37,410 bases of DNA, from the IMG/VR virus record IMGVR_UViG_3300032240_000857, positions 1-37,410 of that record; one strand, written 5' to 3'. Of this stretch, positions 11,882 to 37,367 are shown piece by piece. Each line of letters begins with the position of its first letter. Positions within the stretch are counted from its first letter, which is position 1. The notes under the pieces were generated by a model. That model saw only the letters and a list, made by a program, of their open reading frames with translations, was not told where the DNA came from and did no database searches. The translations under genes were made by a program, and so were the position numbers. Origin of the DNA: a virus.

Positions 11882-14800
11882 TCAAACCTCCATCAACCAC
11901 CAACCTTGAACAGTAGAAGGAATTCCTACTTGCCCATTGCTATCAGTGCTTCCGAGATAAACCAAAGTAAATGCAGCATTTGGTGTTTGTACTACCAATT
12001 CTCCCGAAGGATATGCAGTAGATCTACCACCGAATAATGTTCCAGTAGAATCTCCTTGTACTTTAACTGCTGTTCCTGGTGCTCTGACAACTAATGTGGT
12101 TTGGTAACTTAAATTACCACCAACTTCAACAATTTTAACCGTATCACCAGTTTTTGGACTACTTGGTAGTGTTAAAATCAAAGTATCTTGAGCCGTAACA
12201 TTAACCATATAAACAATATTAGGACTTAGTATTTTAGCATCATCAGTAGAAGTAGTAGAAACATATCTGGTATGTCTAGCACCACTAGGAGTATAGAAAC
12301 TAGTATATCCAAACGAATCAATTTCTCCAGTTTGTTTAATTGTAAATTTATTCGCACCATTTACACCCAAATTATCAATAGATAGTGAAGAAATACCAGC
12401 AGATGGTGCTGCGGATGCTACTCCAGTAACACCAAGAGTTAAAAGAACTCTAGCATTTCCTAAGCTATCAACAGAGAAAGTTGGAGAATATCCAGCAGTT
12501 GATATGAGAACTGATTCTGGACAACCAGCGCCATACAAGAAGAAGTCGCCTCTTCCTCTAACATCTGCTATCCATCCAATACTTGCGCTATGCTCTGCGT
12601 GTCCATCATCATTAGAAATTCTAAACAATTCTGAACGATTTGTTGAATCAGTAATAGACAAACTACCACCAATCATTTTAAAATCATTGTTTAATGTTAG
12701 GTTGCCTCTTCTGAATGGAAGAGCACCATCTTTTCTATTTTCATCTATTCCAGGTAAATGTCTAGTTCCCGATAATCTACCCGATTGTATAGTGCCGTCA
12801 CCTTTAGGAACATTAAAGATTGTAGAATAATTACCTCTAACCAATCTAACATATTGATTATAATCAATTTTTTGTTGAACAATATATCCAAGATCAAGAA
12901 TAGCGGATAAGAATGGTGTGGTTGGCGATAATGTGGTGGCAGTTCTAGTTCTTTGTGCAATATCAATTAGATTTGCAGATTCTGGATGTTTAACAATTTT
13001 TCTAACAGTAAGTCCAGCAGTAACCGTAATCTGACCCGTTCCTTCTTTAGCACGATAAACTATCATGCTTCCTGGAGTTAAGAATGGATCGCCACTCAGT
13101 TGCATAATTTCAAATACACCTGTAGTTGTATTACCAACAAGTATTAAATCACCACTAGCAAAACCAGAAATACTTTGAACTGGTAGATAGTAAGTTGAAT
13201 ACAAGCTAGAAGCAAGGGTCATTGATCCAGAAACTGTTGTTAATGGTCCGTTAGGATTAATTGTAGTTGGATCATCAGAATATGCATAAACTACAGTATC
13301 AGTAGAATTTTGATAATCTGTAAGTATAGTACTAATAGATGGTAGATATGATGAGGTTCCGTTGTTGTTGAGAACAAGTGGAACAAGTTCAATTCTAGCA
13401 ACTTGATTACCAATAATAGTATCGCCAGTGCAAGTATTAACTTGGAATGTTGTATCGTAAGTATCAGTTAATTTTAATTTTTCACATTCTGAAGATCCTG
13501 ATGGCGTACCACCAGTAAGAGTAAAACCACCGTAAATACTAAGGTTTCCATTAGATGAAGTTACATTTGGATTACCTATTATAGTATTACCATTAGTAGA
13601 ATCTACACTAAAGAATGTAACTGGTGTTGGAGTTGCACCATCATTAATTGTAAATTTCTTAGGCACAAGTGCAGAACTACTGCTAATTTTAATAGCTTCA
13701 CCAGATTCCGAACCGTTAGCATCATTAGAATCAGTACTGATTCTATCAATAATGATGTAATCCCCCACATTAATAGTACCACCGATTTCAGCGATAGAAA
13801 CACCAGTATCGGTTGTGTTGATAGATGTTGTTATCCAAGTAGAATTAAATTGAATGACTGCTTTATAAATTACAGTATCATCTAAATGACCATTACTTGG
13901 TTTTGGTAAGAATGATCCAAGTGGTATTCTCTTAACTCTAATCCAATATGGACCAGAACCAGAAATTTGAGATAACTCATCAACTTGAACCAACTCTGGC
14001 CATCTATTAGTGCTAGGAGCACTATTAATGTATAGAAAATCATTTACGGAAATACTATTAGCACCAGTAGGAGAATTTTTAAGTGGAAGATAATAATAAT
14101 TTCCGCTCAATGCTGGCAGAGTAATACCAGCACTGACAAATGATTGTTGATAATCTGCATTTGTGGCAGTTGATCCCCAAACACCATTACCTGGAGTATC
14201 AATTTGATTGGAATTGGTAGTAATAATTGAAACTATATCTACATTATTTGTAGTGGGAGGAGTTAAGGATCCAGTATGTCCAGTTACAGTAGATCCTAAT
14301 TGAGATCTGACACCATTAAAATTAAGACCAACTAATCCACCATTTAAAGTAATGTTTGAATTTGCAGTAATGGATCCATTAACCGTTAATGAGTTTCTAA
14401 TTTTTGTGCTTCCGCCTTGTCCACCCATCACTAGGGTTGATACAGCACTACCAAAATTAAGAGTTGATGTTATAGTGTTAAAGAAATTAACTGTTCCAGC
14501 GGTGCTACCAATAGTTAAAGAATCAGATAAACCTCTCTGTGTACCAAATAATACATCACCAGAAATTTTGAAAGATTTGGTATTTACTGAAACATAACTT
14601 TGCGATTCGTTATTTCCATATGCCCCACCAATATTAATTTTAGAAATATTAGATGATGTAGTGGCAGGATTGCCTATATTAATGATAGAATTAGAAGAAC
14701 TAGTACCAACATTGATTGTTTGACCATTTGTAATGGAATTACCGATGTTGATTGCTGCAGTATAATTAGCAAGATTTAAAGTTCCTGTAAATGTATTTTG

Positions 14801-17800
14801 TGTGAGTAAATTAAATACGCCTGTGGTTACACTAGTTGTAATATCACCACCATCAACCTCTAAATCACCTTGGAATAGAACATTGTCACTGATTCTTGCT
14901 TGACCAATAACAACAAATGCTTTATCAAGTTGGGCGTTTGTAGCATTAATACCAACTCTACCACTATTTGTAGTCGCAATTCTAAAGACAGCAGCATTGT
15001 TTGGTGTTGCACTATCACCACCAACTAAGAAAGCATTATCAATAGTAGTTTCGGTTTTTGTTGTTCCAGGTTCATTAAGATAATTAAGGATTTTCTTACC
15101 ACTAATAAACGCATTGCCTACAAGATCTAAGTTTGCTCTTGGTGATGTTTCGACAGAAACAAATGCAGTTGCATAAGCAGATTGTGCAGAACGGGCAACA
15201 GTGTTAATTCCCAGTTTATAATCACCAATAGTGCCAGTTTCTGTTCTAATTGACTCAGAACCAATAACTCCAACTTCTTTCCAAGATGTATTTGAGATAT
15301 AAAAATTGATATTAGGTTCAGTACCAGAACTAATATTATATGTTCCCGTATCAATATAAGTTGAAAGAAGAATATCTACATACGTGTTTTGTGTATTAAA
15401 AGTAGTAGGATCAATTGACCAAGCACCTAATGTTTTGTTTGTTAAAGAATCATTTGCAGGTAAATAAGAACCAGTTATTCTAATCTGATAATTGCTTGAG
15501 GTTATTCCAATAGCAGCATTAGTATATCTATTAGTTGTTGATGGAATCTCATTCCAAGTAATTCTAACTTTATTGTTTCCATTACCATATCCAGTAAAAG
15601 TAAATCTTCTTTGGGCAGGAACTAATTGATAATCATTTGCATAGATCCACCCCAAAGAACCACTTAATCCAACTTGCTCACCTTTGAGTAATAAATCACC
15701 AGTTTGCAGTGAATATAAGCTGCCAAGATCAATTGCAGTTGATCCAAATCTATTTGATTGATCTGGTGTAAATTGTGAAGTTGCAGTTCTTATTGAATAA
15801 TCCTGAAATCCTCTTGCATTAAAGTCAACAACAGCAACTTGTAATCTGTTATTTGAAAGAGTAATATCTCCAGTTGGTCTATTTGTAGAATAATTTGAAA
15901 CAAGATTTAAATCATCTTGTACTGTTCCCTGGAAAATATTCGACTTAATTTTAATTGCTGGAGGTGCCAACAATTGAGTTAATGGATCTTTCGCAGCAAC
16001 ATCCATATCAATTGGTGCGCTGAAAGCAATTGGCCATTTTACTGAGTTTGGTGCAGCAAATGTTACTTTATCATTAAAAGTAACAGGACCATCAAAAGTA
16101 GTTACAAAGTTTCCAATAACATCACCCGCATCTGCACTCGAAACAAGTGCTGCTGATTCTAAGAATGTTTCTTCACCTGTAATAGCATTGATCTTACGAT
16201 TACCAATATAAAGATCACCGTTAGAGTTTAGACCTGTATAGAATACAATACCGCCATTCTCTCTCTTTGCTTGTGCATAGAAATCTTGGATATCTGTGAG
16301 CACAACTTCTTGTCTTGCTGGGAAACCAGTTGAATAGTTACCAGGACCAAAACCAAGATATTCAAATGTATGATTACCTGAACGTGCAATAGAAGGTCTA
16401 CGAAGTTCAACATAAAGTTTTCCTTCTGTTGGATACGCAGAATTGCCAGCAATAGAAATTTTTCTAGCTTCTGAACCAGCAGAAGCGCCGCCATCTTGTG
16501 ATTGAATTGCAGTAGTACCACCGAATTGATATCTACCAGACCCAACATCTTGGATCATATCAAGAACTGCTTCTTTTGTTACACTATTTTTAGCATCATT
16601 AATAGTAACTAAACCATGAACATAATTATCAGCAGAGGAAATTGAAGGGGGTGGATCGATAGCAATGGCATCAATTTGCTTGTACCATTCTGGGTCGTTC
16701 TTGTAGAATTCTGGGTACAACTTAGAAACAGGTTGCGAGAACTTAAAGTTTCTGAAGTTTTCTCCAACACCAGATCCAGTTGGGTATGGTCTGATGTCAC
16801 CACGCATACAAGTTAGATAGTAGATACCATCTTGCTGACCGTAAATTCTTCTACGAACAGTATTAATATCAAAAATATAATAGGTTCCTTCAAAATCTTG
16901 TACATCTTCTATAGATGCAATAGTGTAAGAACCATTTTCTGCAGTTAGTGTATCACCAGGAGTTAATGTGTAAACGTTTGAGCCTTCAATTGCATAAAGA
17001 TTATTAGCAATATCAGATCTACCACCATTTGGCGCAGAAATAAGTTTTGCTGAAACAGATCCTTGAGTAAATGTAGTTGAAGTGAAAGGACTATATGTAA
17101 TCGTTGATGTTACAGATAAATCCTTAAGAATCATGTAGTAATTTCCTTCATAACTGAAGTAAGCATGTACTCTTGCTGTTCCGCTAGATGCACCACTCCA
17201 AGTAATAATATTTGTAGTATTGCTCGATGGGAGATCAGCAGTATTTGCTACAAAATTACCAGTTCCCCCCTGTGGAGTATCAATTTTAACTGTCGTAAAT
17301 AATTTATTTTTATATCCCTGCTCTTCAATACCAATGTTGAATACTGTTAATTGTAAGTATTCAGTACCATTTACAGAAACTCTTCTTGCTGATTGAACAT
17401 AGAAAGTTACCTTCGAATCTGTAGTAATTCTCTTATTGTAACTTGAATTGTATGGATCAAAAATACTAACAAAACTAGGTCCATGTTCAGTATTTGTATA
17501 ACCTAGATATTCTCTATTTGCTGACTTACCAACAACTGCTGCAGAAGTATTTGAAATACTAAATTCTGCAATATTAGCACCCGAGCTAGTTGGCTTGAGA
17601 AGAATCTTCTGTGGCAATAAACGTCTAGTGCTATCATTTCTTGCCTTGATAACAAATCCACGCAATGGATCACGTACTGATTTGAGATACTTAGGAATTA
17701 CATAACGCAATCTATAAACTCTATCTTCTTTGGAACGAGTATCATCAATTCTTTCAAACCAAGTATCTGGTGTTTTATCTTTAGCAGCAAAATCATCTCT

Positions 17801-20800
17801 TCTGATTCTATCCAAAATTGTATTTGGTTTGGATGTATCAGTACCAATATACCACGTACCACCTTTTGAAGTGGCAGCAGAAGGATCAAAACGTAGTGGT
17901 GATCTTTTTTTGTTGGATAAAGTATAGAAACTGCTCGTATATGTCACAAACGAAAGTGGTGTAGCACCAGAAACAGCGCCAGCTAAAGTATCAAATAGTT
18001 TGAAGTATCTGTTTGCAGATCCAGCACGTTTGAAGTAACGAACATAGTATTCTCTATTTGGTGATAGTGTACCACCAGATGATAGAGAAGGAAGTGGATT
18101 TGAACCAATTGCCTTAACAAATACCGCTTGATACTTCTGATTATCTCCAGTATTATAAGCAGATGTTGGAACATCAAATACATGTGGTCCTTCAGTTTCA
18201 AATGTTTCTCCGTCTGTTTGACGAGTTGTATATTGATTAAGGCTGTAATCAACATCTAAAACATACTGATAAACATCAATGATAACGTTTTCATCTACAC
18301 TCTGAGTTTCTGACGAATAGATGTATATACCAGCAGCAGCATTTTCTACACTACTTGCAAGCATGAGGTTCTGTAATGAACCAGTAGATGCGTCGAATCT
18401 TGTAGTACCAGAATAATCATATGGATCGGTCTTTCTACCAGGAGCAATGACGTAATAGACAGTGTTTGTATCAAATCCTTTAGGAAGACGAATTAGACGC
18501 TTATCGACAGTAGCACCATCTTTTGCTCGTGGAACCAATCTAATAGGAGTTCCAGTTTCTAAATGATGGGGGTCTGTTGGAAGTGAACCAGAAGAAAGAT
18601 CAGCAAGAGTAAAGAGTGTCGCTCTTTGTGCAAACGATGTTGTGTTTACAGTTCCGCCAACTTTAACAACAGCATCAATACCATTATTAATAATAGTATT
18701 AAAAGTTGTAAAATAAGTATTAATTGCTTCTACAACCGTAGCACATTCACCATTTGTTGCCGAGTAATTATAATCTTGTGTTACATTTAGATCCACTGCT
18801 GGTTTGAGTGCATTAGCCCAAATACCAGTATCTAATTGGAAGAAGAACTTAATAGGAGTATTTGTTCCGAGTGATGATTTTGCATTTACTTTAATACCAC
18901 TATCAAACTTGCTTCCTTGTGTTCCAAGTTGAACTTGATTAATTGCAAGACCATTTGTTCCATCACCAATCTTCATAATGTAAGCAGTTGATGGAATTGA
19001 ATCAGTGTAGTTTGTATCCTTAGGAACCACTCTACCATTTACAACCTGCTCTAATTCATCATTATAGTTTGTAGCATTTCTGTTGAGTGAACCAGTATTT
19101 GAAGGAATTGCAGTTACACTGCGAACCTTCATACCAACAGCAAGTCCATTCGTACTAGGAACGGTAATGATTGGTGAACTACCAGTTGCTGTACCAGTCA
19201 TGTAAGTGTTGTGATTTCTCATCGAAGAAATCGCAAGATTTCTTACATAATCATATGCATCTAGCGTTTCTACTCTTTCATTTTGAATATAATCAAGTCC
19301 ATTAGCAATGAATGAAATAGAACCAGCAGTGAAACTACCTGAAGTAATTGCAACTGTAATTTGTTGTGAACTATTTACCGATAGAATAGTTGGGTTGACT
19401 CCAAAATTACCAGCACCAGAAGTTTTGCTGAGTGCTTGACCAGCTTGTAACCTAGAAGTATCGGAAAGTCCAGTAATAACACCACCAGAAGAAATTGTAC
19501 CAGATAGCGAATACTGTGAAGTTCCAGTATAGTATGCTTGTGCAGCATTAACTGTATTCTCGTTGCCACCCAATCTGAGGTCAGATGTAACCGCTTCTAC
19601 AATATATCCAATATCTCTACGGCACTTGCTTGATTCGCTAACAGTGCTCCAAGGACCAGGATTTGAAGAAGGAAGATTGTTGACATTTCCTGCTTTGATA
19701 GCACCAGTAAGAATATTGAACAAGCTATCAATTGTGCTTCTTACGTTGGCGCAATCATATGTTCCATCATCAATTGGTGGCAAGCTATTAAGATTACCAG
19801 CAGTAATTACCCCCGTAACAATTGCAAACAAGTTATCTACTGCGGTTCTAACATCAGCACAGGAATTTGGCGAAGTATTAGCAATATTTCCACCGCCACC
19901 ACCGACAGTAGAAGGACCAGCAGAAATGGTTAGATTTTTAACCGTAAGTTGGTTGGTGATTGCTTGTTTTACTAAATTTCTAGCAGCATTAAATGCAAAA
20001 ACTGATTGAGTTTCTTCTCCAACTAATCCATTTGATAATGGAGCGCCAGCAGAAGTGAAATATTCTTTCACAGCAGCAACAGTAAATTCGTTACCTCCCC
20101 AGAATAAATCCTGTGCAATAGAATCTACGATATAACCAATGTCTCTTTTGCACTTAGTATTATTTCCACCAGGAACGGTGAAAGATGGATACGCTACCTG
20201 CATTTGTGAAAATGCAGTATCAATAATTTCTTGGCGATTTGAGTTGATTAGTTTAAGAGTATCTTTAAATCTACCAGCAGTTGCTGTTGCATTTTGTGGA
20301 TCAATCGTTACCGTAGAAACATAGAATGCACCAGTTGCTGGTGATGTAGCAGGAGCAGATGCAACTGTATACTTGAATTGAGTAGCAGTTAATCCAGTTG
20401 CAAGAACTTTTGCCTTATAAACATTATATTGACTTTGAGTTGCACCACCAACGCTGATATCTTGCCCCGATGTTAAACCATGATTAGCAGAGCAGGTTAC
20501 TGTGATTGTAGTGCCACTTGCAGTTAAAGAAGTAACTGGAAGTAGAGAAGTATTTGAAAGTAGGTTAGAAATTGCTTTCTTTGCCCAATCTCTTGCACGA
20601 TTAAATGCAAAGATTGATTGTGTTTCTTCGCCAACCAATCCATTGCTGATTGGAGTACCATCTGGGTTGAAATATGCTTTTGTAGCAGCAAGCATATTTA
20701 CGTTGCCACCATCATACAAGTCAGCAGCAAGAGCATCAATAACTAATCCAATATCACGCTTACACTTGTCTGCGCTAGGTGGCGTGAATGTTGGATAAGA

Positions 20801-23134
20801 TACAATCATTTGATTGTAAGCATAATCAATGATTTCCTGGCGGTTAGAAAGAATGAGATTTCTCGCATCTCTATAACGACCAGTATCAGCAGTGATATTT
20901 GGGTTTACATATGTAATATTTTGTAGATATGGATATTTCTCTAGGATATATCCAAATGCTTCCGCCTGAATAAATGTTTTGTTTGCATCAATTAAGTTAG
21001 CAGCATCCTGGCGAAGATTGAAGAATGTGAGGTCTGCAGCAGTGTTTGCAGTTCCATCCTTATCAACGTCACCCACACCTAAATTTGCTGGGCTAAGAGT
21101 ATCAACGGATGCTGCCCATCTCTTAAATCCTTGTGGATAAACAACAGCACTTCTTGTAGTTGGACCAGTTTCACCAGCTGACTGGTCAGCGGTCATTGTT
21201 GAATAAAGTTTTTCGCACTTATCACTACTAATATATGTTCTAGCACCCAATCTATATCCGTTGATACTTACAGCAGGACGAGATAGATAATTATTTGCCT
21301 TATCACCAGTTAGATACAATTTGCTTGTATTTGTAATTGGTTTTGAAAGTTGAACGTCAACAGGATAGTAACTTGTTTTAACGATTGCAGCAGTATCGCT
21401 AAGTTTTTGTGGAGGAATAATATCGGTGATATATCCACCCTTGTCTTGGTTGAACGCAAACCCTTTATAACCTTTCGAGTGCATCGAAGTGTTACCAAAG
21501 TTTGAGTTAGAGTTGGTGATCGACATGTCACCACCTGACTCAAGCAGGAAGTGATCTGCAAAACCAACAGCAAAGATCGAAACGTTCTGAATAAAGGAGT
21601 CATCAGAAGCACGAACGTGGAAGTTTCTCCAATCATCCTTCCAATATGCATCGCCCTTGATGTGATACGGCGTTGTGGCGAACGCATCTGTTAGAGGTGC
21701 CTGATTCCATGTGTTAGTGAATTCATCGTAGCGAATGAATGCACGGTCATCTTTCTGTAGAGAAACACCTGTATACTGAGCGATAACCATCGATTTGAAA
21801 CCAGTTGCCTTGCGACCGTCAGCCCAGATACCGCAAATACCCCAAGTTGAACGAATCGAAACGTTAAAGACATATGGTGATGCTGATTCTACCGAGTCAA
21901 CCTCTGCCTGAATTGTAGCATTGATATCTGGTACGATTGTTGCACCAGGAATCAATCCAACAGCATTTGCTGTGGTTACAACACGATATATAAACTCTTT
22001 TGGATTTGTTGCGCTGATAGAAAGAACTTGGAAAACACCCTCAAGGTTAGCATTCAATCCAGTATTAGCAACTGCAACGTACTGACCTGGGAATAGATTA
22101 TGGTTGATCTTTGTTCTTACAGTAACATCAAGTAAACCAGATGATGGTTCGGTTACTATAAGTTCATCAATCTGAATAGTATCAGCAAGAGGTCCAACAA
22201 TTCTATTTTCTTGGATTCTATAATCAAATTCACGGGAAATTGTACTCAATCTTTCCCAAAATGTTGTTTCTAAATCTGGACGTTTATTTGTAGAAGCAGA
22301 AATAGCTTTATATCCTTCACCACCAAATACTACAGTTTGATTTTGTGCATAACTTGTGCCAGATACCCAAGTATCTTGCACAATACCAACTTCTGAAGTA
22401 TAAACATCATCAATTGCTTGTTGGTACTTACTAAAGCATTTTGAAATTTTTCTATATAACGAACTCAAATCTTGCTTATCAGCAAAGACAAAGTTTGTCA
22501 TTTTATGGTGCGAAAATACTGGAGTTACCAGTTGAGTGGAATTGGGTTGACTATAAACTTTACCACTTAATGGACCAGTTTCTGGGTTACCGTCAAGGAT
22601 AGTAAACTGCCAGAAATAGCAACCACCAGTTACGTTAAAAAGTGCTGTGCGTGGTACATCTTTATCTGCTGGATCGGGTATATAAAGAGCACGAACCTGT
22701 GTTCTACGAAGGTCTGTACCTACAAGTGATGTACCTCTAGGAATAGTAGCTCCACCATCTTTACCATTAAATCTATAAAGAACGTTATTGGGATTTCCCA
22801 AGTCAAAGATAGACGTATCATTCCATTGATCCGTTACACTATCATAATTAAAAATAGGAATATCAGCTACAGTTAAATCGCCAGGACGGTTATCAATATA
22901 GTGGGTGCCAGGAGCAAGAAGAATAGTAAACTGGTCAAAACGATCGTTATCTACACCAGGAACATACGAATAACGAGCAACTTCAAGGAAAGCTCTTTGA
23001 ATGGTAACAAAAGGTCTTAATGGCGTATTTCCTCTGTTATCTAAAGCATCAGAAGCATTAAAATCGTCTGGTGAAACATAGATGTACTTACCAGTTTTGC
23101 TGGTAATTAGATTATCTAATCTTGTTAATGGCAT
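11882..23134 (-). CDS. Giant virion structural protein (3750 residues), beta-helix and repeat-rich
   Basis: This gene fills 30 percent of the window. The N-terminus has a pectate-lyase-like beta-helix start (GNTPLRPFVTIQRAFLEVAR, residues about 35-55). Residues about 685-1200 contain related blocks of ~125-200 residues, each with a NRQEIID...YP.FT segment, a K-C-K/R-R-D-I-G motif (near 788, 993 and 1167) and, in the first two, SNGLVGEETQS. Between them are two tandem ~40-residue CA-D/N-VR units (about 1087-1155). The C-terminal half has strand-rich fibre-type repeats (such as IINIGN, KINIGG). Similar giant proteins are a hallmark of T4-like cyanophages and are taken as baseplate or fibre components. 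A perfect TATAAATA promoter precedes it. GAAGG abuts the ATG, so the ribosome site is poor. Confidence 0.85.
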   Translation of the reverse strand: MPLTRLDNLITSKTGKYIYVSPDDFNASDALDNRGNTPLRPFVTIQRAFLEVARYSYVPGVDNDRFDQFTILLAPGTHYIDNRPGDLTVADIPIFNYDSVTDQWNDTSIFDLGNPNNVLYRFNGKDGGATIPRGTSLVGTDLRRTQVRALYIPDPADKDVPRTALFNVTGGCYFWQFTILDGNPETGPLSGKVYSQPNSTQLVTPVFSHHKMTNFVFADKQDLSSLYRKISKCFSKYQQAIDDVYTSEVGIVQDTWVSGTSYAQNQTVVFGGEGYKAISASTNKRPDLETTFWERLSTISREFDYRIQENRIVGPLADTIQIDELIVTEPSSGLLDVTVRTKINHNLFPGQYVAVANTGLNANLEGVFQVLSISATNPKEFIYRVVTTANAVGLIPGATIVPDINATIQAEVDSVESASPYVFNVSIRSTWGICGIWADGRKATGFKSMVIAQYTGVSLQKDDRAFIRYDEFTNTWNQAPLTDAFATTPYHIKGDAYWKDDWRNFHVRASDDSFIQNVSIFAVGFADHFLLESGGDMSITNSNSNFGNTSMHSKGYKGFAFNQDKGGYITDIIPPQKLSDTAAIVKTSYYPVDVQLSKPITNTSKLYLTGDKANNYLSRPAVSINGYRLGARTYISSDKCEKLYSTMTADQSAGETGPTTRSAVVYPQGFKRWAASVDTLSPANLGVGDVDKDGTANTAADLTFFNLRQDAANLIDANKTFIQAEAFGYILEKYPYLQNITYVNPNITADTGRYRDARNLILSNRQEIIDYAYNQMIVSYPTFTPPSADKCKRDIGLVIDALAADLYDGGNVNMLAATKAYFNPDGTPISNGLVGEETQSIFAFNRARDWAKKAISNLLSNTSLLPVTSLTASGTTITVTCSANHGLTSGQDISVGGATQSQYNVYKAKVLATGLTATQFKYTVASAPATSPATGAFYVSTVTIDPQNATATAGRFKDTLKLINSNRQEIIDTAFSQMQVAYPSFTVPGGNNTKCKRDIGYIVDSIAQDLFWGGNEFTVAAVKEYFTSAGAPLSNGLVGEETQSVFAFNAARNLVKQAITNQLTVKNLTISAGPSTVGGGGGNIANTSPNSCADVRTAVDNLFAIVTGVITAGNLNSLPPIDDGTYDCANVRSTIDSLFNILTGAIKAGNVNNLPSSNPGPWSTVSESSKCRRDIGYIVEAVTSDLRLGGNENTVNAAQAYYTGTSQYSLSGTISSGGVITGLSDTSRLQAGQALSKTSGAGNFGVNPTILSVNSSQQITVAITSGSFTAGSISFIANGLDYIQNERVETLDAYDYVRNLAISSMRNHNTYMTGTATGSSPIITVPSTNGLAVGMKVRSVTAIPSNTGSLNRNATNYNDELEQVVNGRVVPKDTNYTDSIPSTAYIMKIGDGTNGLAINQVQLGTQGSKFDSGIKVNAKSSLGTNTPIKFFFQLDTGIWANALKPAVDLNVTQDYNYSATNGECATVVEAINTYFTTFNTIINNGIDAVVKVGGTVNTTSFAQRATLFTLADLSSGSLPTDPHHLETGTPIRLVPRAKDGATVDKRLIRLPKGFDTNTVYYVIAPGRKTDPYDYSGTTRFDASTGSLQNLMLASSVENAAAGIYIYSSETQSVDENVIIDVYQYVLDVDYSLNQYTTRQTDGETFETEGPHVFDVPTSAYNTGDNQKYQAVFVKAIGSNPLPSLSSGGTLSPNREYYVRYFKRAGSANRYFKLFDTLAGAVSGATPLSFVTYTSSFYTLSNKKRSPLRFDPSAATSKGGTWYIGTDTSKPNTILDRIRRDDFAAKDKTPDTWFERIDDTRSKEDRVYRLRYVIPKYLKSVRDPLRGFVIKARNDSTRRLLPQKILLKPTSSGANIAEFSISNTSAAVVGKSANREYLGYTNTEHGPSFVSIFDPYNSSYNKRITTDSKVTFYVQSARRVSVNGTEYLQLTVFNIGIEEQGYKNKLFTTVKIDTPQGGTGNFVANTADLPSSNTTNIITWSGASSGTARVHAYFSYEGNYYMILKDLSVTSTITYSPFTSTTFTQGSVSAKLISAPNGGRSDIANNLYAIEGSNVYTLTPGDTLTAENGSYTIASIEDVQDFEGTYYIFDINTVRRRIYGQQDGIYYLTCMRGDIRPYPTGSGVGENFRNFKFSQPVSKLYPEFYKNDPEWYKQIDAIAIDPPPSISSADNYVHGLVTINDAKNSVTKEAVLDMIQDVGSGRYQFGGTTAIQSQDGGASAGSEARKISIAGNSAYPTEGKLYVELRRPSIARSGNHTFEYLGFGPGNYSTGFPARQEVVLTDIQDFYAQAKRENGGIVFYTGLNSNGDLYIGNRKINAITGEETFLESAALVSSADAGDVIGNFVTTFDGPVTFNDKVTFAAPNSVKWPIAFSAPIDMDVAAKDPLTQLLAPPAIKIKSNIFQGTVQDDLNLVSNYSTNRPTGDITLSNNRLQVAVVDFNARGFQDYSIRTATSQFTPDQSNRFGSTAIDLGSLYSLQTGDLLLKGEQVGLSGSLGWIYANDYQLVPAQRRFTFTGYGNGNNKVRITWNEIPSTTNRYTNAAIGITSSNYQIRITGSYLPANDSLTNKTLGAWSIDPTTFNTQNTYVDILLSTYIDTGTYNISSGTEPNINFYISNTSWKEVGVIGSESIRTETGTIGDYKLGINTVARSAQSAYATAFVSVETSPRANLDLVGNAFISGKKILNYLNEPGTTKTETTIDNAFLVGGDSATPNNAAVFRIATTNSGRVGINATNAQLDKAFVVIGQARISDNVLFQGDLEVDGGDITTSVTTGVFNLLTQNTFTGTLNLANYTAAINIGNSITNGQTINVGTSSSNSIINIGNPATTSSNISKINIGGAYGNNESQSYVSVNTKSFKISGDVLFGTQRGLSDSLTIGSTAGTVNFFNTITSTLNFGSAVSTLVMGGQGGSTKIRNSLTVNGSITANSNITLNGGLVGLNFNGVRSQLGSTVTGHTGSLTPPTTNNVDIVSIITTNSNQIDTPGNGVWGSTATNADYQQSFVSAGITLPALSGNYYYLPLKNSPTGANSISVNDFLYINSAPSTNRWPELVQVDELSQISGSGPYWIRVKRIPLGSFLPKPSNGHLDDTVIYKAVIQFNSTWITTSINTTDTGVSIAEIGGTINVGDYIIIDRISTDSNDANGSESGEAIKISSSSALVPKKFTINDGATPTPVTFFSVDSTNGNTIIGNPNVTSSNGNLSIYGGFTLTGGTPSGSSECEKLKLTDTYDTTFQVNTCTGDTIIGNQVARIELVPLVLNNNGTSSYLPSISTILTDYQNSTDTVVYAYSDDPTTINPNGPLTTVSGSMTLASSLYSTYYLPVQSISGFASGDLILVGNTTTGVFEIMQLSGDPFLTPGSMIVYRAKEGTGQITVTAGLTVRKIVKHPESANLIDIAQRTRTATTLSPTTPFLSAILDLGYIVQQKIDYNQYVRLVRGNYSTIFNVPKGDGTIQSGRLSGTRHLPGIDENRKDGALPFRRGNLTLNNDFKMIGGSLSITDSTNRSELFRISNDDGHAEHSASIGWIADVRGRGDFFLYGAGCPESVLISTAGYSPTFSVDSLGNARVLLTLGVTGVASAAPSAGISSLSIDNLGVNGANKFTIKQTGEIDSFGYTSFYTPSGARHTRYVSTTSTDDAKILSPNIVYMVNVTAQDTLILTLPSSPKTGDTVKIVEVGGNLSYQTTLVVRAPGTAVKVQGDSTGTLFGGRSTAYPSGELVVQTPNAAFTLVYLGSTDSNGQVGIPSTVQGWWLMEV

Positions 23135-30481: not shown

Positions 30482-33400
30482 TTAAGAACCTAATAATGAA
30501 TATGGGGTTAATGATGCAGCAGTAGATAATGGATCAGCCATAGAAGAACCACCATATGGTGAAAACCCCATATGTTCTGTCGTCGATGGAAGAGATAAAA
30601 CACCCGATCCATTGTTAACAGGCACAGGGATTAAAGCTGGTTGAGTTAATCCAGCAGATGGTGCTGCTCCAGTTGGTGCTTTCAATGGTTGGAAAGGAAT
30701 AGGAGAAGTAGTAGGAATGGTAGGTTCTTTTGACATCAACCCATATGCTTTAGTAACAGCCGACGACAAACTTTGTAGGAAGTTCAAAGTATCTTGTACT
30801 GGATCTGTGCTTTCTGTTTTTTCCTTATCATTAGCACCTGATGGATCAATTTGCGTAGAATTATCTAGTCCATCTCCAGGTTTTGGGGTGCCAGTAAATG
30901 GTGTCATATAAGAGTATTTACTTAGTGGATCTTTTCTATCGCCCGTTCCTGGTGGTAGTCCCAACATTCTTGGATTGTCTGCCATTTCCCAATGTAAATG
31001 AGGACCAGAAGATTCTCCTGTAGAACCAACTGTCCCTAAAATTTTTCCTTTTTTAATTTGAGTATTTACCTCAGTATTTTTACCAAAAGCAGACATGTGT
31101 GCATATAAATGTCCTATTCCCGTTGTTTTTTCTACCCAGTAAATACTATTTCCGTATCCACCATCGTGGTGTCCAGATTCTCTTTTATCTTTTATTATTC
31201 CATCAGCAAATGCATATAATTTAGTACCTGTTGGAGCTGCAATATCTGTACCTTCATGCATTTGCCTTGAACCATTGAGAATTCTTTGCCCTCTTCTGCT
31301 GGTAATAGCTATGCCAGATTCTGCTTTGATTTTAGATATATCTATGTCAGGTCCGTATGGTTTGTCTCCAAAATTTTTCTTTTCGTTAGGATTAAGATTA
31401 GAAATAGGTGTGGTAATTACTGTATCATGGGCTAAACCTTGCCCCTGTTGGTTTTTAACTACACCATTTTTTTCATAATTATAAAATCCAATTGGTGGAG
31501 CATTTGTAACCACTACTTCTCCTGTTGTTAAATTTCTATAAAATTTTCCTGCATCTCCTAACCCTTGTTTTAACTCAGAAGTGCTAACTTCTTTAATTGA
31601 TTTTTGTCCTAATGTAGGATCAATAAAAAATACTTTTCCTGTGTTATCATAATAATATTTGTCGGATAATTGACCGCCCCAATCAACCATCTTAACTCTT
31701 TTTACACCAGCTTTATTTGTACCAGTAACGGCTGATATAACTCTTTTAACACCACCGTTATCAACTTGTTTATCTACGAAGTTAACATTTTCTTGTAGAT
31801 TTTGTAATGTTGTTTTTTGGGGTGGTTGCTCGCCAGGTGGACCGCCAGGTGGCGCCCCAGTTGGTGATGGAGTATCTGGATTAGTATCATCTGGTAATGC
31901 ATCACCACCACCTCCACCACCTCCACCACCGCCAGCATTCTCTTTCTTTTTGTTTGGTTGTAGTTTTTCAAGGGAACCTTTTACAAGTTCCTCCATATAT
32001 TTTTCACCTTCTTTCTGTGCATTTGGATTCTTCTTCAAGGATGCACCGCCAACATCTATTTTAGTTGCAGTTGCTGGAATATCAAATACCCTGCCCAATT
32101 TATCGACATCTTGTTCAATAACTGGAGCAACAGATTGTCCAACTGGTCCCAATCCTTCCACGAAATCTTTTGTAACAGCAAGCATACCACCAGCAGCAGC
32201 GTTATATGGTTGCTGATATGCATCATTCAATGCAGTATTATCACCACCCAACATTTTTTTTCCATCCGCTGAGTGTAATGATGTGACCATTTCTGGTCCC
32301 GCTTCCCCAATCATCACACCACCAGCAGCCATTTTCTTTTGATTACCTGCCATCATATCTTTAGCTCTATCAAATAACCAACCACCCAAAAAGTCGCCAA
32401 GCACACCACCACCCACTAAAGCAAATGGTTCTAAGAATGGTAGAGGAGCTGATAATAATCCAAACAAAGCACCACCAAGCATTGATCCTACTGACTTTGC
32501 TATTGCTCGATCGATTGGTTCTCCCATTGCTAAGCTAACAAAGAAATCAATAATACCACCAAAGATAGGTATTCTTTTTAAAATTGGTCTAAGAAATCCT
32601 TTGAAGAATCCACCAGCACCAGCTGCTGCTCCTTCTGCGGCACCAGCTGCTGCTCCCTCTGCAGCACCACCAAACATTTTAAGTATTCTTCCACCGCCAG
32701 GTATTTTTTGTAGTATACCTTTCAAAGCATTTCCAATAGTTTCTGGCAACATTTTGAAGAATGATTTTATGCCATTAAATGCTTCTAATATACCAGCAAT
32801 ATTAAATCCACTACCAGGAACAAACGTTGACGTAGCAGATGAAGTACCACCAGAAACATTTGATTGCTCTAATGATGCTTCTGCTGCTTGCAACTTCTGT
32901 TCTTGTGCTTGCTCTTGTTGTACTTCAAACTGTTTTGATATAATTTGTTTTAGTTCTGCTAAACTTCCACTGACTTTATAAATTGTTCCTAATTGTTTAT
33001 TGAATAAACTAGTGAGACCAGACAACGAATTTGCAATTGCTTGTATGTCTGTTACTATTTCACCTAAAGAATTAATTACAACAGATCCGCCTCCGCCACC
33101 ACCCATGCCACCAGATGGTGTTTCCTCGTCATCTTTTTGTGAAGATTTATAACCAGATCTATCAAACCCACCTTTTTTTATAGAGAATCTTTTTGCAAGA
33201 ATTTTATCTTCTAATTTTCTACCTTTCTTTCCAAAGAAACCAACAAAGTTTGCACCAGATTCTATCTTCTTATTCAAAGATTTTTTTATATCTTTGATCG
33301 GATTAGATATAAATTGTTGTTTTAATGCTTTTACAAATAATCCTTTCTTAGCAGAGTCAGGTACTTCTCCACCTTTTGCTTCTAATTTTTCTTGGAATTT

Positions 33401-33517
33401 CTTTTCATCTTTTGCTGCTTGTGCTGCTGCTAGAACTTTAGACGCAACAATACCACCAAAGTTTATACCACTTCCAGGTACATATGTTGATGTTGCTGAC
33501 TGTGATCCCGCTGCCAT
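30482..33517 (-). CDS. Tail-tip structural protein with M23 endopeptidase domain
   Basis: A 1011-residue protein. The N-terminus and a second site near residue 228 share a SATST-Y/F-VPGSG motif, an internal duplication. A coiled coil lies at about 160-220, and a Gly/Ala-rich hydrophobic region at about 240-390, as in tape-measure proteins. Residues about 735-875 form an M23 (lysostaphin-type) metallopeptidase with all zinc and catalytic motifs: H754 and D758 (HEGTD), HLYAH (803-807) and H840/H842 (GPHLHWE). Such domains cut peptide cross-links of the cell wall during DNA entry. The 160-690 scaffold resembles the upstream lysozyme protein. It starts 24 bases after that gene, with a CTAAATA late-promoter-like site at the junction. 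Confidence 0.85.
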   Translation of the reverse strand: MAAGSQSATSTYVPGSGINFGGIVASKVLAAAQAAKDEKKFQEKLEAKGGEVPDSAKKGLFVKALKQQFISNPIKDIKKSLNKKIESGANFVGFFGKKGRKLEDKILAKRFSIKKGGFDRSGYKSSQKDDEETPSGGMGGGGGGSVVINSLGEIVTDIQAIANSLSGLTSLFNKQLGTIYKVSGSLAELKQIISKQFEVQQEQAQEQKLQAAEASLEQSNVSGGTSSATSTFVPGSGFNIAGILEAFNGIKSFFKMLPETIGNALKGILQKIPGGGRILKMFGGAAEGAAAGAAEGAAAGAGGFFKGFLRPILKRIPIFGGIIDFFVSLAMGEPIDRAIAKSVGSMLGGALFGLLSAPLPFLEPFALVGGGVLGDFLGGWLFDRAKDMMAGNQKKMAAGGVMIGEAGPEMVTSLHSADGKKMLGGDNTALNDAYQQPYNAAAGGMLAVTKDFVEGLGPVGQSVAPVIEQDVDKLGRVFDIPATATKIDVGGASLKKNPNAQKEGEKYMEELVKGSLEKLQPNKKKENAGGGGGGGGGGDALPDDTNPDTPSPTGAPPGGPPGEQPPQKTTLQNLQENVNFVDKQVDNGGVKRVISAVTGTNKAGVKRVKMVDWGGQLSDKYYYDNTGKVFFIDPTLGQKSIKEVSTSELKQGLGDAGKFYRNLTTGEVVVTNAPPIGFYNYEKNGVVKNQQGQGLAHDTVITTPISNLNPNEKKNFGDKPYGPDIDISKIKAESGIAITSRRGQRILNGSRQMHEGTDIAAPTGTKLYAFADGIIKDKRESGHHDGGYGNSIYWVEKTTGIGHLYAHMSAFGKNTEVNTQIKKGKILGTVGSTGESSGPHLHWEMADNPRMLGLPPGTGDRKDPLSKYSYMTPFTGTPKPGDGLDNSTQIDPSGANDKEKTESTDPVQDTLNFLQSLSSAVTKAYGLMSKEPTIPTTSPIPFQPLKAPTGAAPSAGLTQPALIPVPVNNGSGVLSLPSTTEHMGFSPYGGSSMADPLSTAASLTPYSLLGS

Positions 33518-33538
33518 TTAAATATATCTTCTTATTAA

Positions 33539-33546
33539 TATTTAGG
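33539..33546 (-). promoter_or_regulatory. Candidate late promoter, CCTAAATA
   Basis: Six of eight matches to TATAAATA at the junction of the two hydrolase genes, overlapping the stop of the first and 21 bases before the start of the second. It shares CTAAATA with the sites at 24047 and 37402. Confidence 0.35.
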
Positions 33547-36490
33547 GTATCCTAAGAGCATTTACACGATCTACAATCTGAGAATGTCTCAATGTGTTTG
33601 TCCTAATAAATTTATCAGGGGATGTATGTTGCGGTGCTTGCTGTGATATACTTGGTTGAGAAGCAACTGGAAGATATTGTATATTAGTATTTGATTTTTT
33701 ATTTAATGTTTTTACTGGAGGATTTTTATATCCAGGAGAATTTTTGTATGAATTTGGACCTGATATTTGATCATAATCGGCAGTTCCTTCTGGGAATAAC
33801 ATGTCGCCAACAAGTGGTAAATTACCTATCTCCAAAGCTTTACCACCTAATCTCAATAATCCACCAGCAATTTTACTAAAACTTCCTGCACTGCGAGCAG
33901 TTTCACTAATCAACTGAGCACGAAGTTTATTTGCTAAAGGACTATTAGCATATTTACCAGACAATAATTTGTCTGCTAATAATTTTCCTTTGTCAAATGT
34001 TCCTGGAGCAACTGCTGCTTGTGGTTCTAGGAAATTAATTCTTCTGGCACCACCAGGAACAATACTTTTAACAACCCCACCAGCAGTTTGCCTACCACCT
34101 AATGATCCACTGGTTCCAGCATATCTTTGGGCTCCCTTCATAGTAGGAGCAGAATAGGCACCACGCCCTAAGATTTGTGGTTTAAATCTACCTAATCTAA
34201 ATTTGTCACCACCCATGATAGCATCAAAACCTTCTTTGTTCATGCCAGTAAACCCAGCCTGAACTCCTCTGGTGCTGAGACCTCTTCCACCCGTTTCATA
34301 TCCTTTCTTTACGCTAGTATTACTATTAAGAATTTGTTGCCACCTAGAAATTGTTTTTAGTGGATCATTTTCCATACTGAACTTTCTATTTTCAATAGGA
34401 AGAATTGTAAATCCTTTTTCGTATTGAACAACTGCTTCTTTACCATGCATTGTTCCAATACCAGGAACAGGATAACCCGAATTAGGACCAGTTAAAGTGA
34501 ATGAATCGACAGGTTTTCCCTGAGAATTATTCATACCAATTTCCGCAGATACTTTCGAATACTTATTATAAATTCCCTTAGCAAGAGAAGCTCTATGTGG
34601 AGATTCTATTCCATAATCTCCAGGAACTTCTATTTCTTTCAACCAAATATCAGATGCCTCTTGGATAGATTTTGCGTTTTTAATTTTATCAATTGACGAT
34701 TTATAATACTTATCAGTTTCCCATTTTAATCCAAGCAACTGACCTTCTATGCTATTAGGATCTTTTTTGATTGATTGTATATACTTAGAAACTCTGGGCC
34801 ATCTTGTATCAGGATCCCATTGCATCAATCCGTGATATCCGTAGGCATTACTTATTTTTGGATTAAACCCAGATTCTTGTGTTAAATTTCCCATGATGCC
34901 AGCAGTTTGATTTTCATCAAACCCCTGTGATTTTAAAAAATTCCAAGTTTTTTCAGCATTTTCTGATCCTTCAAATTTTATTGCATCAATGTTATCATCT
35001 TCATTTGTCCTTTTTTCTTTCGTTTCTTTTTCCGAATCATCACCAATTTTTATACCAAACAATGACATTAAGTTTTTCCAAATGTCGGAAAAGATATCTT
35101 TCTGTCTTTCTGCATCAGTGGCAGCAGCATAAGCAGGACCACCTAACAAAGCATTGATAACTCCAACAGGAACATCTAATACTCTTGCCATTGCTCCAAC
35201 TATACCATTAATATATGGAGCAAAAAATCCAGCAACAGGTCCAAGTGCTCTGATAAATTGACCAGCTAATGCCACCATAGCAGAACCAATTGCTTTGAAT
35301 GGTTGTTGCATTACCTCAGCAAATGGTTGATGTAACTTTTCTATTTTCTTATCTGGTTTATCTCCTAAGATTTTTTTACCATAATTCCTATTCAATGGAA
35401 TGACCGCTTGCCCTGGCATTAATCTTCCCCTTGTTGGTTTGTCATACAATCCAGGTTGTATAACTCCCTGAGCATAAGATACTGTTCCAGGCAATCCTGT
35501 AGCAGGATACATTGATATACCACCATCACCCAAAGCATTTGTAGCAGGGAATGGGGTGTTTAAAAATCCACCACCAGCCATTTTTTTGGGTCCACCAAAT
35601 TTTGGCAAAGAAATTTTTCCTAAAAGTCCTTTGCCTTTTCCTAAGAAATTTTTAACAAATCCAAGAGGTCCACTATTGTCTGTTTCTTTTACAGTTGACT
35701 CCGCTTTATCAGATCCACCAGAAACATTAGTTTGTTCTAAACTTTTTTCTGTTGCTGCTTCTTTCTGTTGTTGTATTTGTTCTTGCGTTGCCTGTAGTTG
35801 TGAAGCAAAAACTTGTTTGATTGAATTTAGATTCGCTAGAATATTACCATAAGTATTGTCAGATGCTTCTGCTACTTTTACTTGTGTAGCAATACTCCCC
35901 TTAATATTTTCAAGTGATGCCTTTAAAGAATCTAAATCATTGGATGATTCTTCTTCTTCTTTTGCTTCAGGTTTTTTTTCTTCCTCTGGTTGTTCTTCTG
36001 GTTGTGGTTCAGATTCTGGTATTAATTCTTCAACTTCATCTATCGTTTCTTGTTCTTGCTGTTCATCATCCTGCTCTTCTTGCTTTGGTTCCTCTTCTTT
36101 TTTTGGTTCGTTTTTCTTTGCCTCTTTTCTTTGCTGAATAGTTCTTTCTATTTCAGCATCTTCAATCTTTTTATTTGTTTCTTCACGGAATGGTTTTTCG
36201 AGGTATTCTTCTACCAACCACTCTTGGTATTTTTGTAGATTTTCATACTCTTTAGCGCCACCAGTATTATTAAACTGTGGATACCCTCTTGGATCCTTCT
36301 TTAGATTTTCAATTAACCTATCAGCATCTGCTTCAGACAAGTTAACAAACGATGAATACTGAGTTCCATCATCCATCTTTCTGCCAGTTAACCTAGCCTT
36401 AAGAAGCATCCAAGTTCTCTCCCCCACCTTGGCACTATACCAAGGTATCTTCGGATCTAATACTCCTTCTGGCGGTTGTGGAAGATTCAT
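33542..36490 (-). CDS. Tail-tip structural protein with phage tail lysozyme domain
   Basis: A 982-residue protein. Residues about 100-185 are a Glu/Gln-rich charged stretch, about 190-250 a coiled coil ending SLEQTNVSGG, and about 310-450 a Gly/Ala-rich hydrophobic scaffold (KMAGGG, then ALGPVAGFFAP, then RVLDVPVG). A lysozyme-like domain follows at about 515-650 with AGIMGNLTQESGFNP (probable catalytic E539), GLMQWDP and a C-terminal PHRASLAKGIYNKY, the pattern of the phage tail lysozyme family. It would degrade peptidoglycan glycan strands at infection. The C-terminal ~320 residues are unrecognised. Its ATG overlaps the stop of the gp51-like frame (ATGA). Confidence 0.8.
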   Translation of the reverse strand: MNLPQPPEGVLDPKIPWYSAKVGERTWMLLKARLTGRKMDDGTQYSSFVNLSEADADRLIENLKKDPRGYPQFNNTGGAKEYENLQKYQEWLVEEYLEKPFREETNKKIEDAEIERTIQQRKEAKKNEPKKEEEPKQEEQDDEQQEQETIDEVEELIPESEPQPEEQPEEEKKPEAKEEEESSNDLDSLKASLENIKGSIATQVKVAEASDNTYGNILANLNSIKQVFASQLQATQEQIQQQKEAATEKSLEQTNVSGGSDKAESTVKETDNSGPLGFVKNFLGKGKGLLGKISLPKFGGPKKMAGGGFLNTPFPATNALGDGGISMYPATGLPGTVSYAQGVIQPGLYDKPTRGRLMPGQAVIPLNRNYGKKILGDKPDKKIEKLHQPFAEVMQQPFKAIGSAMVALAGQFIRALGPVAGFFAPYINGIVGAMARVLDVPVGVINALLGGPAYAAATDAERQKDIFSDIWKNLMSLFGIKIGDDSEKETKEKRTNEDDNIDAIKFEGSENAEKTWNFLKSQGFDENQTAGIMGNLTQESGFNPKISNAYGYHGLMQWDPDTRWPRVSKYIQSIKKDPNSIEGQLLGLKWETDKYYKSSIDKIKNAKSIQEASDIWLKEIEVPGDYGIESPHRASLAKGIYNKYSKVSAEIGMNNSQGKPVDSFTLTGPNSGYPVPGIGTMHGKEAVVQYEKGFTILPIENRKFSMENDPLKTISRWQQILNSNTSVKKGYETGGRGLSTRGVQAGFTGMNKEGFDAIMGGDKFRLGRFKPQILGRGAYSAPTMKGAQRYAGTSGSLGGRQTAGGVVKSIVPGGARRINFLEPQAAVAPGTFDKGKLLADKLLSGKYANSPLANKLRAQLISETARSAGSFSKIAGGLLRLGGKALEIGNLPLVGDMLFPEGTADYDQISGPNSYKNSPGYKNPPVKTLNKKSNTNIQYLPVASQPSISQQAPQHTSPDKFIRTNTLRHSQIVDRVNALRIP

Positions 36491-36657
36491 TGATTTTTAT
36501 TTTGCTCTTCGATATGTTGATTAAGCATACTCACATAAACTTGCCTTTCCCACGGTAACATGTTATCCAATTCAGTCAAAGAAAATTTATGATGATACAT
36601 CAAATTAAAATTTGACTGGTAATGATTAATCAATGACTCATGGAATAGGCTTATGCG
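36487..36657 (-). CDS. gp51-like extension reached by -1 frameshift from gp26
   Basis: An open frame of 56 codons in the -1 frame relative to gp26, continuous with it and ending ATGA-coupled to the lysozyme gene. From the codon after the slippery site it reads R-I-SLFHESLINHYQSNFN, then SLTELDNMLPWERQVYVSML. The LPWER-x-x-Y segment is like that of tape-measure chaperone second reading frames. No ATG exists near its beginning: the first is codon 19 of the frame counted from the ATA at 36654, without a ribosome site. Translation by -1 slippage would make a 293-residue gp26-gp51-like fusion. Independent start at ATA 36654 or TTG 36633 cannot be excluded. Confidence 0.7.
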   Translation of the reverse strand, partial: RISLFHESLINHYQSNFNLMYHHKFSLTELDNMLPWERQVYVSMLNQHIEEQNKNQ

Positions 36658-37367
36658 AAAAAATTTACCAGACCCTCAATCTCATATGTACATTCCACAC
36701 CAGTATTAGGATTTATAATTTTAATAGTATGTGCTAGTTTAGGCATGGTAGCAAAGAACTCTCTGATCTTTTCAAATTGTTTAGTAGTAAGAGATTCTAT
36801 GTACTCCGCAATTTCTTTACGAGAAGATGTGCTGGAATCATAAACATCTTCGCCATCAATAATCTGATCAACAGAATCAATAATGATATCAAACACTTCT
36901 TCTGTAGATGGTTCCTTCTGCATAATTTGTGTCTTCACAAATTGATCATATCCAGGATACTTCATTATCATTCCTCTGGTTTCATCCAACATGATTTTAT
37001 TATCATGCCCTTCGAGGAATTGAACTTTAACATCTTCAAGGTTCATAGTATAATCAACTTGAGTTTCATTATCATCTGTGCAAGTGAACTTCATCTCAAC
37101 CATTTCACTAACAGATTTGGCACGAATGTTCATAAAGATATATTCAATATCAAACATGGCAAGAGATTCTAATTTAATACTCTTTGTAAGAATACAACTT
37201 TTTAGAATCTGAACAACAGCATTTTTAATTTGGTTGGCATCTTGTGATTCCATTGCAATCAACAGAACCTTTTCTTCTTTAACTAGGAAAGGTCTAAATT
37301 GTATTTTCTTTTTACTTGATGGAATAATCAAGTCATAAGTAGGCACTGGGGGTTTTGGTAAAGCCAT
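36651..37367 (-). CDS. 26: Baseplate hub assembly protein gp26
   Basis: A 238-residue protein of the T4 gp26 baseplate family. The N-terminus has the family pattern PTYDLIIPSSKKKIQFRPFL followed by VKEEKVLLIAMES, then AMFDIEYIFMNIRAKSVSEM (residues about 69-89). A GGAG ribosome site precedes ATG 37367. In T4, gp26 and gp51 are needed to assemble the central hub. The last four sense codons, AAT TTT TTC GCA, contain a slippery run just before the TAA, suggesting that a fraction of ribosomes continue into the next frame. A TCTAAATA late-type promoter lies 35 bases upstream of the start. Confidence 0.88.
   Translation of the reverse strand: MALPKPPVPTYDLIIPSSKKKIQFRPFLVKEEKVLLIAMESQDANQIKNAVVQILKSCILTKSIKLESLAMFDIEYIFMNIRAKSVSEMVEMKFTCTDDNETQVDYTMNLEDVKVQFLEGHDNKIMLDETRGMIMKYPGYDQFVKTQIMQKEPSTEEVFDIIIDSVDQIIDGEDVYDSSTSSRKEIAEYIESLTTKQFEKIREFFATMPKLAHTIKIINPNTGVECTYEIEGLVNFFA
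36657..36666 (-). other. Candidate -1 ribosomal frameshift site AAATTTTTTC
   Basis: On the minus strand two overlapping canonical slippery heptamers, A AAT TTT and T TTT TTC, are both in the reading phase of gp26 (GTA AAT TTT TTC GCA TAA). The stop follows one codon later, and the -1 frame stays open for 56 codons. No strong downstream pseudoknot is obvious by eye. Confidence 0.7.

Follow-up and report, generated by a model that had tools for sequence, protein, structure and literature searches.

The window, i.e. the whole stretch of DNA from a marine T4-like virus that was analysed (37,410 nucleotides), carries on its minus strand a gene for gp26 (positions 36651–37367; ATG at 37367, TAA stop at 36653–36651), a 238-residue protein read here as the short form of a tail assembly chaperone (TAC-N). 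The protein matches PF12322 (T4_baseplate; E 8e-63, above the cut-off) and phrog_150, a baseplate hub family (E 1e-69), and its gene is the only one with PF12322 in this 37-kb record, which may be a fragment. The gene ends in GTA AAT TTT TTC GCA TAA, and its product in ..VNFFA. An earlier note on this DNA had pointed to two overlapping slippery heptamers at this end, and both were indeed found in phase with gp26: A_AAT_TTT at 36666–36660 and T_TTT_TTC at 36663–36657, the latter in the 0-frame phase NNT TTT TTC. A slip at either would lead to an identical peptide, ..VNFFRIS.., and thus to the same fusion product. As the note had also described, the −1 frame is open over 56 codons (36657–36490, minus strand), encodes an LPWER segment (RISLFHES..LPWERQVY..) and ends in a TGA (36489–36487) that overlaps the ATG (36490–36488) of the next gene in an ATGA arrangement. 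This extension, considered here a gp51-like TAC-C domain, corresponds to phrog_634 (E 4e-23), a family annotated as gp51, baseplate hub assembly catalyst. Joined to gp26, it would give a protein of 293 residues, the length proposed earlier, with a calculated mass of 34.3 kDa rather than ~33 kDa; this long form would read ..VNFFRISLFHES...LPWERQVY....

The locus lies, as had been noted, just before two genes for long tape-measure-like proteins, a position that counts in favour of gp26 and its extension being a chaperone pair. The first (33542–36490, minus strand) encodes 982 residues, matches tape-measure PHROGs and bears a phage tail lysozyme domain (PF18013, E 4e-29), while the second (30482–33517, minus strand) encodes 1011 residues with a peptidase M23 domain (PF01551, E 4e-21). 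These adjacent genes (30482–36490) therefore contain two different wall-degrading domains.

An AlphaFold2 model of gp26, for which only the window and IMG/VR loci were used as input, reached a pLDDT of 85. Its residues 1–95 matched the HK97 tail assembly chaperone structures 2OB9 and 3FGX over 84–86 residues with a Z of 7.6, a value below the level of 8 taken as safe in such comparisons; the next chain had a Z of 2.1. Since 2OB9 and 3FGX stand far above the remaining rows, with alignments over most of the target domain, there is moderate support, at the level of a predicted model, for a chaperone fold in the N-terminal domain of gp26. A Foldseek comparison of the model with the PDB gave nothing significant (E 1.8), and a search of the PDB by sequence gave no match.

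Conservation of the slippery run

Relatives of gp26 were drawn from IMG/VR and from annotated phages, rendering 294 distinct gp26 genes with a readable stop; this set excludes the two-gene phages T4 and RB43, K474 with its missing heptamer, duplicate loci and the second copy of the window itself. Genes below 85% nucleotide identity provided 56 representatives. An in-phase T_TTT_TTN near the stop, followed by an open −1 extension, was present in 294/294 genes, which included those of cyanophages, KVP40, Aeh1, rhizobial and Stenotrophomonas phages and uncultured marine phages. The agreement of so many distinct genes rules out a sequencing error as the cause of the split frames. The heptamer was T_TTT_TTC in 286 cases, TTTTTTT in four, TTTTTTA in two and TTTTTTG in two. 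An in-phase T_TTT_TTN occurred at only five of 13,055 other gp26 codon positions, as compared with 56/56 representatives at the junction.

The codon preceding the run was AGT, TCT, AAT, GAT, GCT, ACT or CGT, its T being constant while the amino acid varied (N, S, D or T ahead of the TTT in the 56 representatives). Under synonymous codon use, the presence of NNT at this position in 56/56 representatives had a log10 P of −9.5, and that of TTT as the first Phe codon, likewise in 56/56, a log10 P of −8.4. Of the two heptamers noted in the window, only T_TTT_TTC was conserved; A_AAT_TTT is lineage-specific, being restricted to the window clade and some other lineages, and was dropped as the main slip site because it is not conserved. 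Its role is probably auxiliary or incidental.

The same run was found in 11 of 12 phage records with a single PF12322 gene (S-PM2, S-CAM3, Aeh1, KVP40, S-CRM01, P-SSM2, two rhizobial phages, Ps15, XG4, K474 and Citrobacter phage Ci1). The exception, and the only deviant found among the one-copy phages, was the Vibrio phage K474, a distant relative whose gp26 gene ends in ACG CTT TTT GCG TAATGATG (locus L091, 3690–3723). Since it has no canonical heptamer, K474 may, to judge from this sequence, use a single-codon slip or re-initiation instead.

Elements flanking the slippery run

A Shine-Dalgarno (SD)-like sequence, present in the window as TGAGGG (36673–36678, minus strand), lies 9 nt upstream of T_TTT_TTC. 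The Glu codon five codons ahead of the run was GAG in 36/40 representatives, against a background of 28%, and GG came next. Anti-SD pairing showed a sharp peak at GAGGG and was stronger than in synonymous recodings (Wilcoxon p 3e-9); its mean at this element was −6.7 kcal/mol, as compared with −3.1 kcal/mol at the start of gp26 itself. These data indicate that the SD-like element is under selection at the nucleotide level. No start codon was found shortly downstream of it in 55/56 representatives, which rules the motif out as an initiation signal for gp51; TGAGGG is likely to be a frameshift stimulator.

Downstream of the heptamer, folding z-scores for segments starting 0–10 nt past it had means of −1.4 to −1.6, versus about −0.3 elsewhere. 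Hairpins could be formed in roughly half of the lineages, in several registers and with some compensatory changes; their pairing percentages are biased upwards because the hairpin groups were picked by their own folds. RNAalifold gave no consensus structure over all lineages, and neither the window (−3.7 kcal/mol over 60 nt) nor its closest relatives showed a strong downstream hairpin. A tentative picture, which we would rate slightly below an even chance, is that frameshifting is driven by a conserved, dnaX-like SD stimulator ~9–10 nt upstream of T_TTT_TTN, with lineage-specific hairpins whose register differs and which were gained or replaced independently of one another; the window clade would make do with the SD-like element and two overlapping slippery heptamers, and no hairpin. 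The SD-like element and the shifting hairpins may be details that have not been described before.

The arrangement resembles that of E. coli dnaX in having an SD-like stimulator upstream and, in some lineages, a hairpin downstream; the stimulator of dnaX lies about 10 nt upstream of its slippery site, a similar spacing to that seen here. The differences are that the dnaX site is A_AAA_AAG, that the gene is unrelated and that its frameshift leads to a shorter, not a longer, product.

Probable translation of the −1 frame

Taken together, the comparative evidence and the fold match support the proposal of the earlier note that the locus specifies a pair of tape-measure chaperones of the lambda G/GT type: gene 26 very probably gives rise to a short and a long form by −1 programmed frameshifting. 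That ribosomes slip here we infer from the slippery run, the open frame, the homology and the conservation observed. Most ribosomes would terminate at the TAA, producing the 238-residue short form (TAC-N). A fraction of them, probably positioned by the TGAGGG about 9 nt upstream, would slip back one base on T_TTT_TTC with tRNA-Phe in both the P and the A site; as both tRNAs would re-pair perfectly after the slip, the heptamer is well suited to tandem slippage. These ribosomes would go on in the −1 frame to make the 293-residue long form (TAC-NC), whose last 56 residues, with the LPWER segment, are the domain called gp51. If the two forms act as lambda gpG/gpGT do (PMC5009743), the N-terminal part that they share would probably coat the product of the tape-measure gene that follows, and the domain present only in the less abundant long form would probably recruit tail-tube subunits, making the tape measure and the tail-tube protein the probable binding partners of the two forms.

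Several observations count against frameshifting. In synthetic constructs assayed in E. coli, U_UUU_UUA/U was far less shift-prone than A_AAA_AAG (PMC5009743). In addition, a strong hairpin downstream is missing from the window and its nearest relatives, K474 lacks a canonical heptamer, and some homologues carry an ATG early in the −1 frame at which ribosomes could re-initiate.

This last possibility, in which ribosomes stop at the TAA of gp26 and restart at a nearby −1-frame start codon to make a separate gp51, is the alternative that survives best, although it is very unlikely. The earlier note had expected both the slippery run and the missing ATG to be conserved among homologues, and had regarded a proper ATG with a ribosome site for the second frame as evidence against frameshifting. 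The run was conserved (294/294); the missing ATG was not universal, since an ATG occurs among the first seven −1-frame codons in 27/56 representatives, and the gp26 stop is part of a TAATG or TGATG in 12/56. At a few of these early ATGs the SD is moderate (down to −5.7 kcal/mol), and public records list gp51 as a separate gene whose start varies (37 aa in S-CAM3, 57 aa in S-PM2). Yet all of these homologues keep the slippery run, the invariant phase of which would be unnecessary for re-initiation, and 29/56 representatives have no such ATG. The window is among the latter: as had been noted, its −1 frame has no ATG at its start (none before codon 20), and no SD was found for its early TTG (36633). 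Moreover, no start codon lies at a usable distance from the conserved SD-like element, and T4 gp51 runs through the junction as one protein. In the representatives with TAATG or TGATG beside the slippery run (L029, 2150–2156; L041; L086, 3814–3818; and others), both a free gp51 and the fusion might be made.

Slippage of the RNA polymerase on the T run, giving a mixed mRNA population without ribosomal frameshifting, is more improbable still. In its favour, the site is a run of T only, of length six in 53/56 representatives and eight in the other three, although six bases are few for polymerase slippage. A polymerase would need neither the constant NNT TTT TTN phase nor the final C (286/294), while the spacing of the SD-like element and the hairpins points to the ribosome. 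Least probable of all, and hardly credible, is that an ancestral frameshift split the gp26 and gp51 frames and left the latter as an untranslated remnant, since every homologue has retained an open extension, in which the changes between close relatives lie mainly at its own third codon positions, 15/21 codon differences to the closest relative being synonymous.

T4 genes 26 and 51 and other systems

Ribosomal frameshifting at this locus does not extend to T4, where gene 26 (208 aa) is on one strand and a distinct gene 51 (249 aa) on the other. Both products match PF12322 over its full length, the C-terminal end of gp51 carries phrog_634, and the two can be aligned with each other (BLASTP E 2e-6 in that single comparison). 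When a profile of the cyanophage fusion was aligned with the T4 proteins, the match to gp26 broke off at the junction, whereas that to gp51 extended across it; T4 gp26 is thus like the short form and T4 gp51 like the long one, the difference being that they come from separate genes without a slippery site. The 3′ end of T4 gene 26 reads GAG TTC TTT GAG, which is not slippery. Two PF12322 genes were also found in RB43, Aeromonas phage 31, a Krischvirus, KARL-1 and phiP4-3, and none of the five short genes inspected (T4, RB43, Aeromonas phage 31, KARL-1 and phiP4-3) has a slippery site. T4 genes 26 and 51 can thereby be explained as two paralogues that together fill the role for which other T4-like phages rely on frameshifting, in agreement with a 2022 proposal by Vladimirov, Gautam and Davidson.

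The frameshift reading of gp26/gp51 is very strongly supported but not new; the earlier note had known of no description for the T4 type. Frameshifting was reportedly seen by Vladimirov and colleagues to be conserved in several T4-like groups, and their abstract is said to name T4 genes 26 and 51. Their paper (Virology 566:9–15, 2022; pmid 34826709) is cited in the literature for polyT slippery sequences in T4-like TAC-N genes, as well as for T4-like phages that instead possess two genes, one short and one long. The gene family and arrangement are the same as here, with no fundamental difference. In a 2016 review, T4 was still listed as an exception to G-T frameshifting (PMC5009743).

With lambda gpG/gpGT and P2 E/E′, the locus would share the production of a short/long chaperone pair by frameshifting, although no sequence similarity to them was shown. 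The lambda slippery site, G_GGA_AAG, differs from the T_TTT_TTC of gp26.

In this large group of marine T4-like phages, then, one gene most likely encodes both lengths of the tail chaperone. If the frameshift reading is true, the start calls of gp51 are a recurrent annotation error. In many public cyanophage records gp51 is listed as a gene of its own, its start chosen arbitrarily, as in S-CAM3 and S-PM2, or is omitted; in Aeh1, too, the frame is left unannotated. The loci concerned are L082 (2288–2401), L081 (2175–2348), L093 (2723–2896) and L085 (3717–3884). The 294 natural variants are ready material for studying the trade-off between slippery run, SD spacing and hairpin. Elsewhere in the window, the longest open frame encodes 3750 residues (11882–23134, minus strand), probably a giant structural protein.
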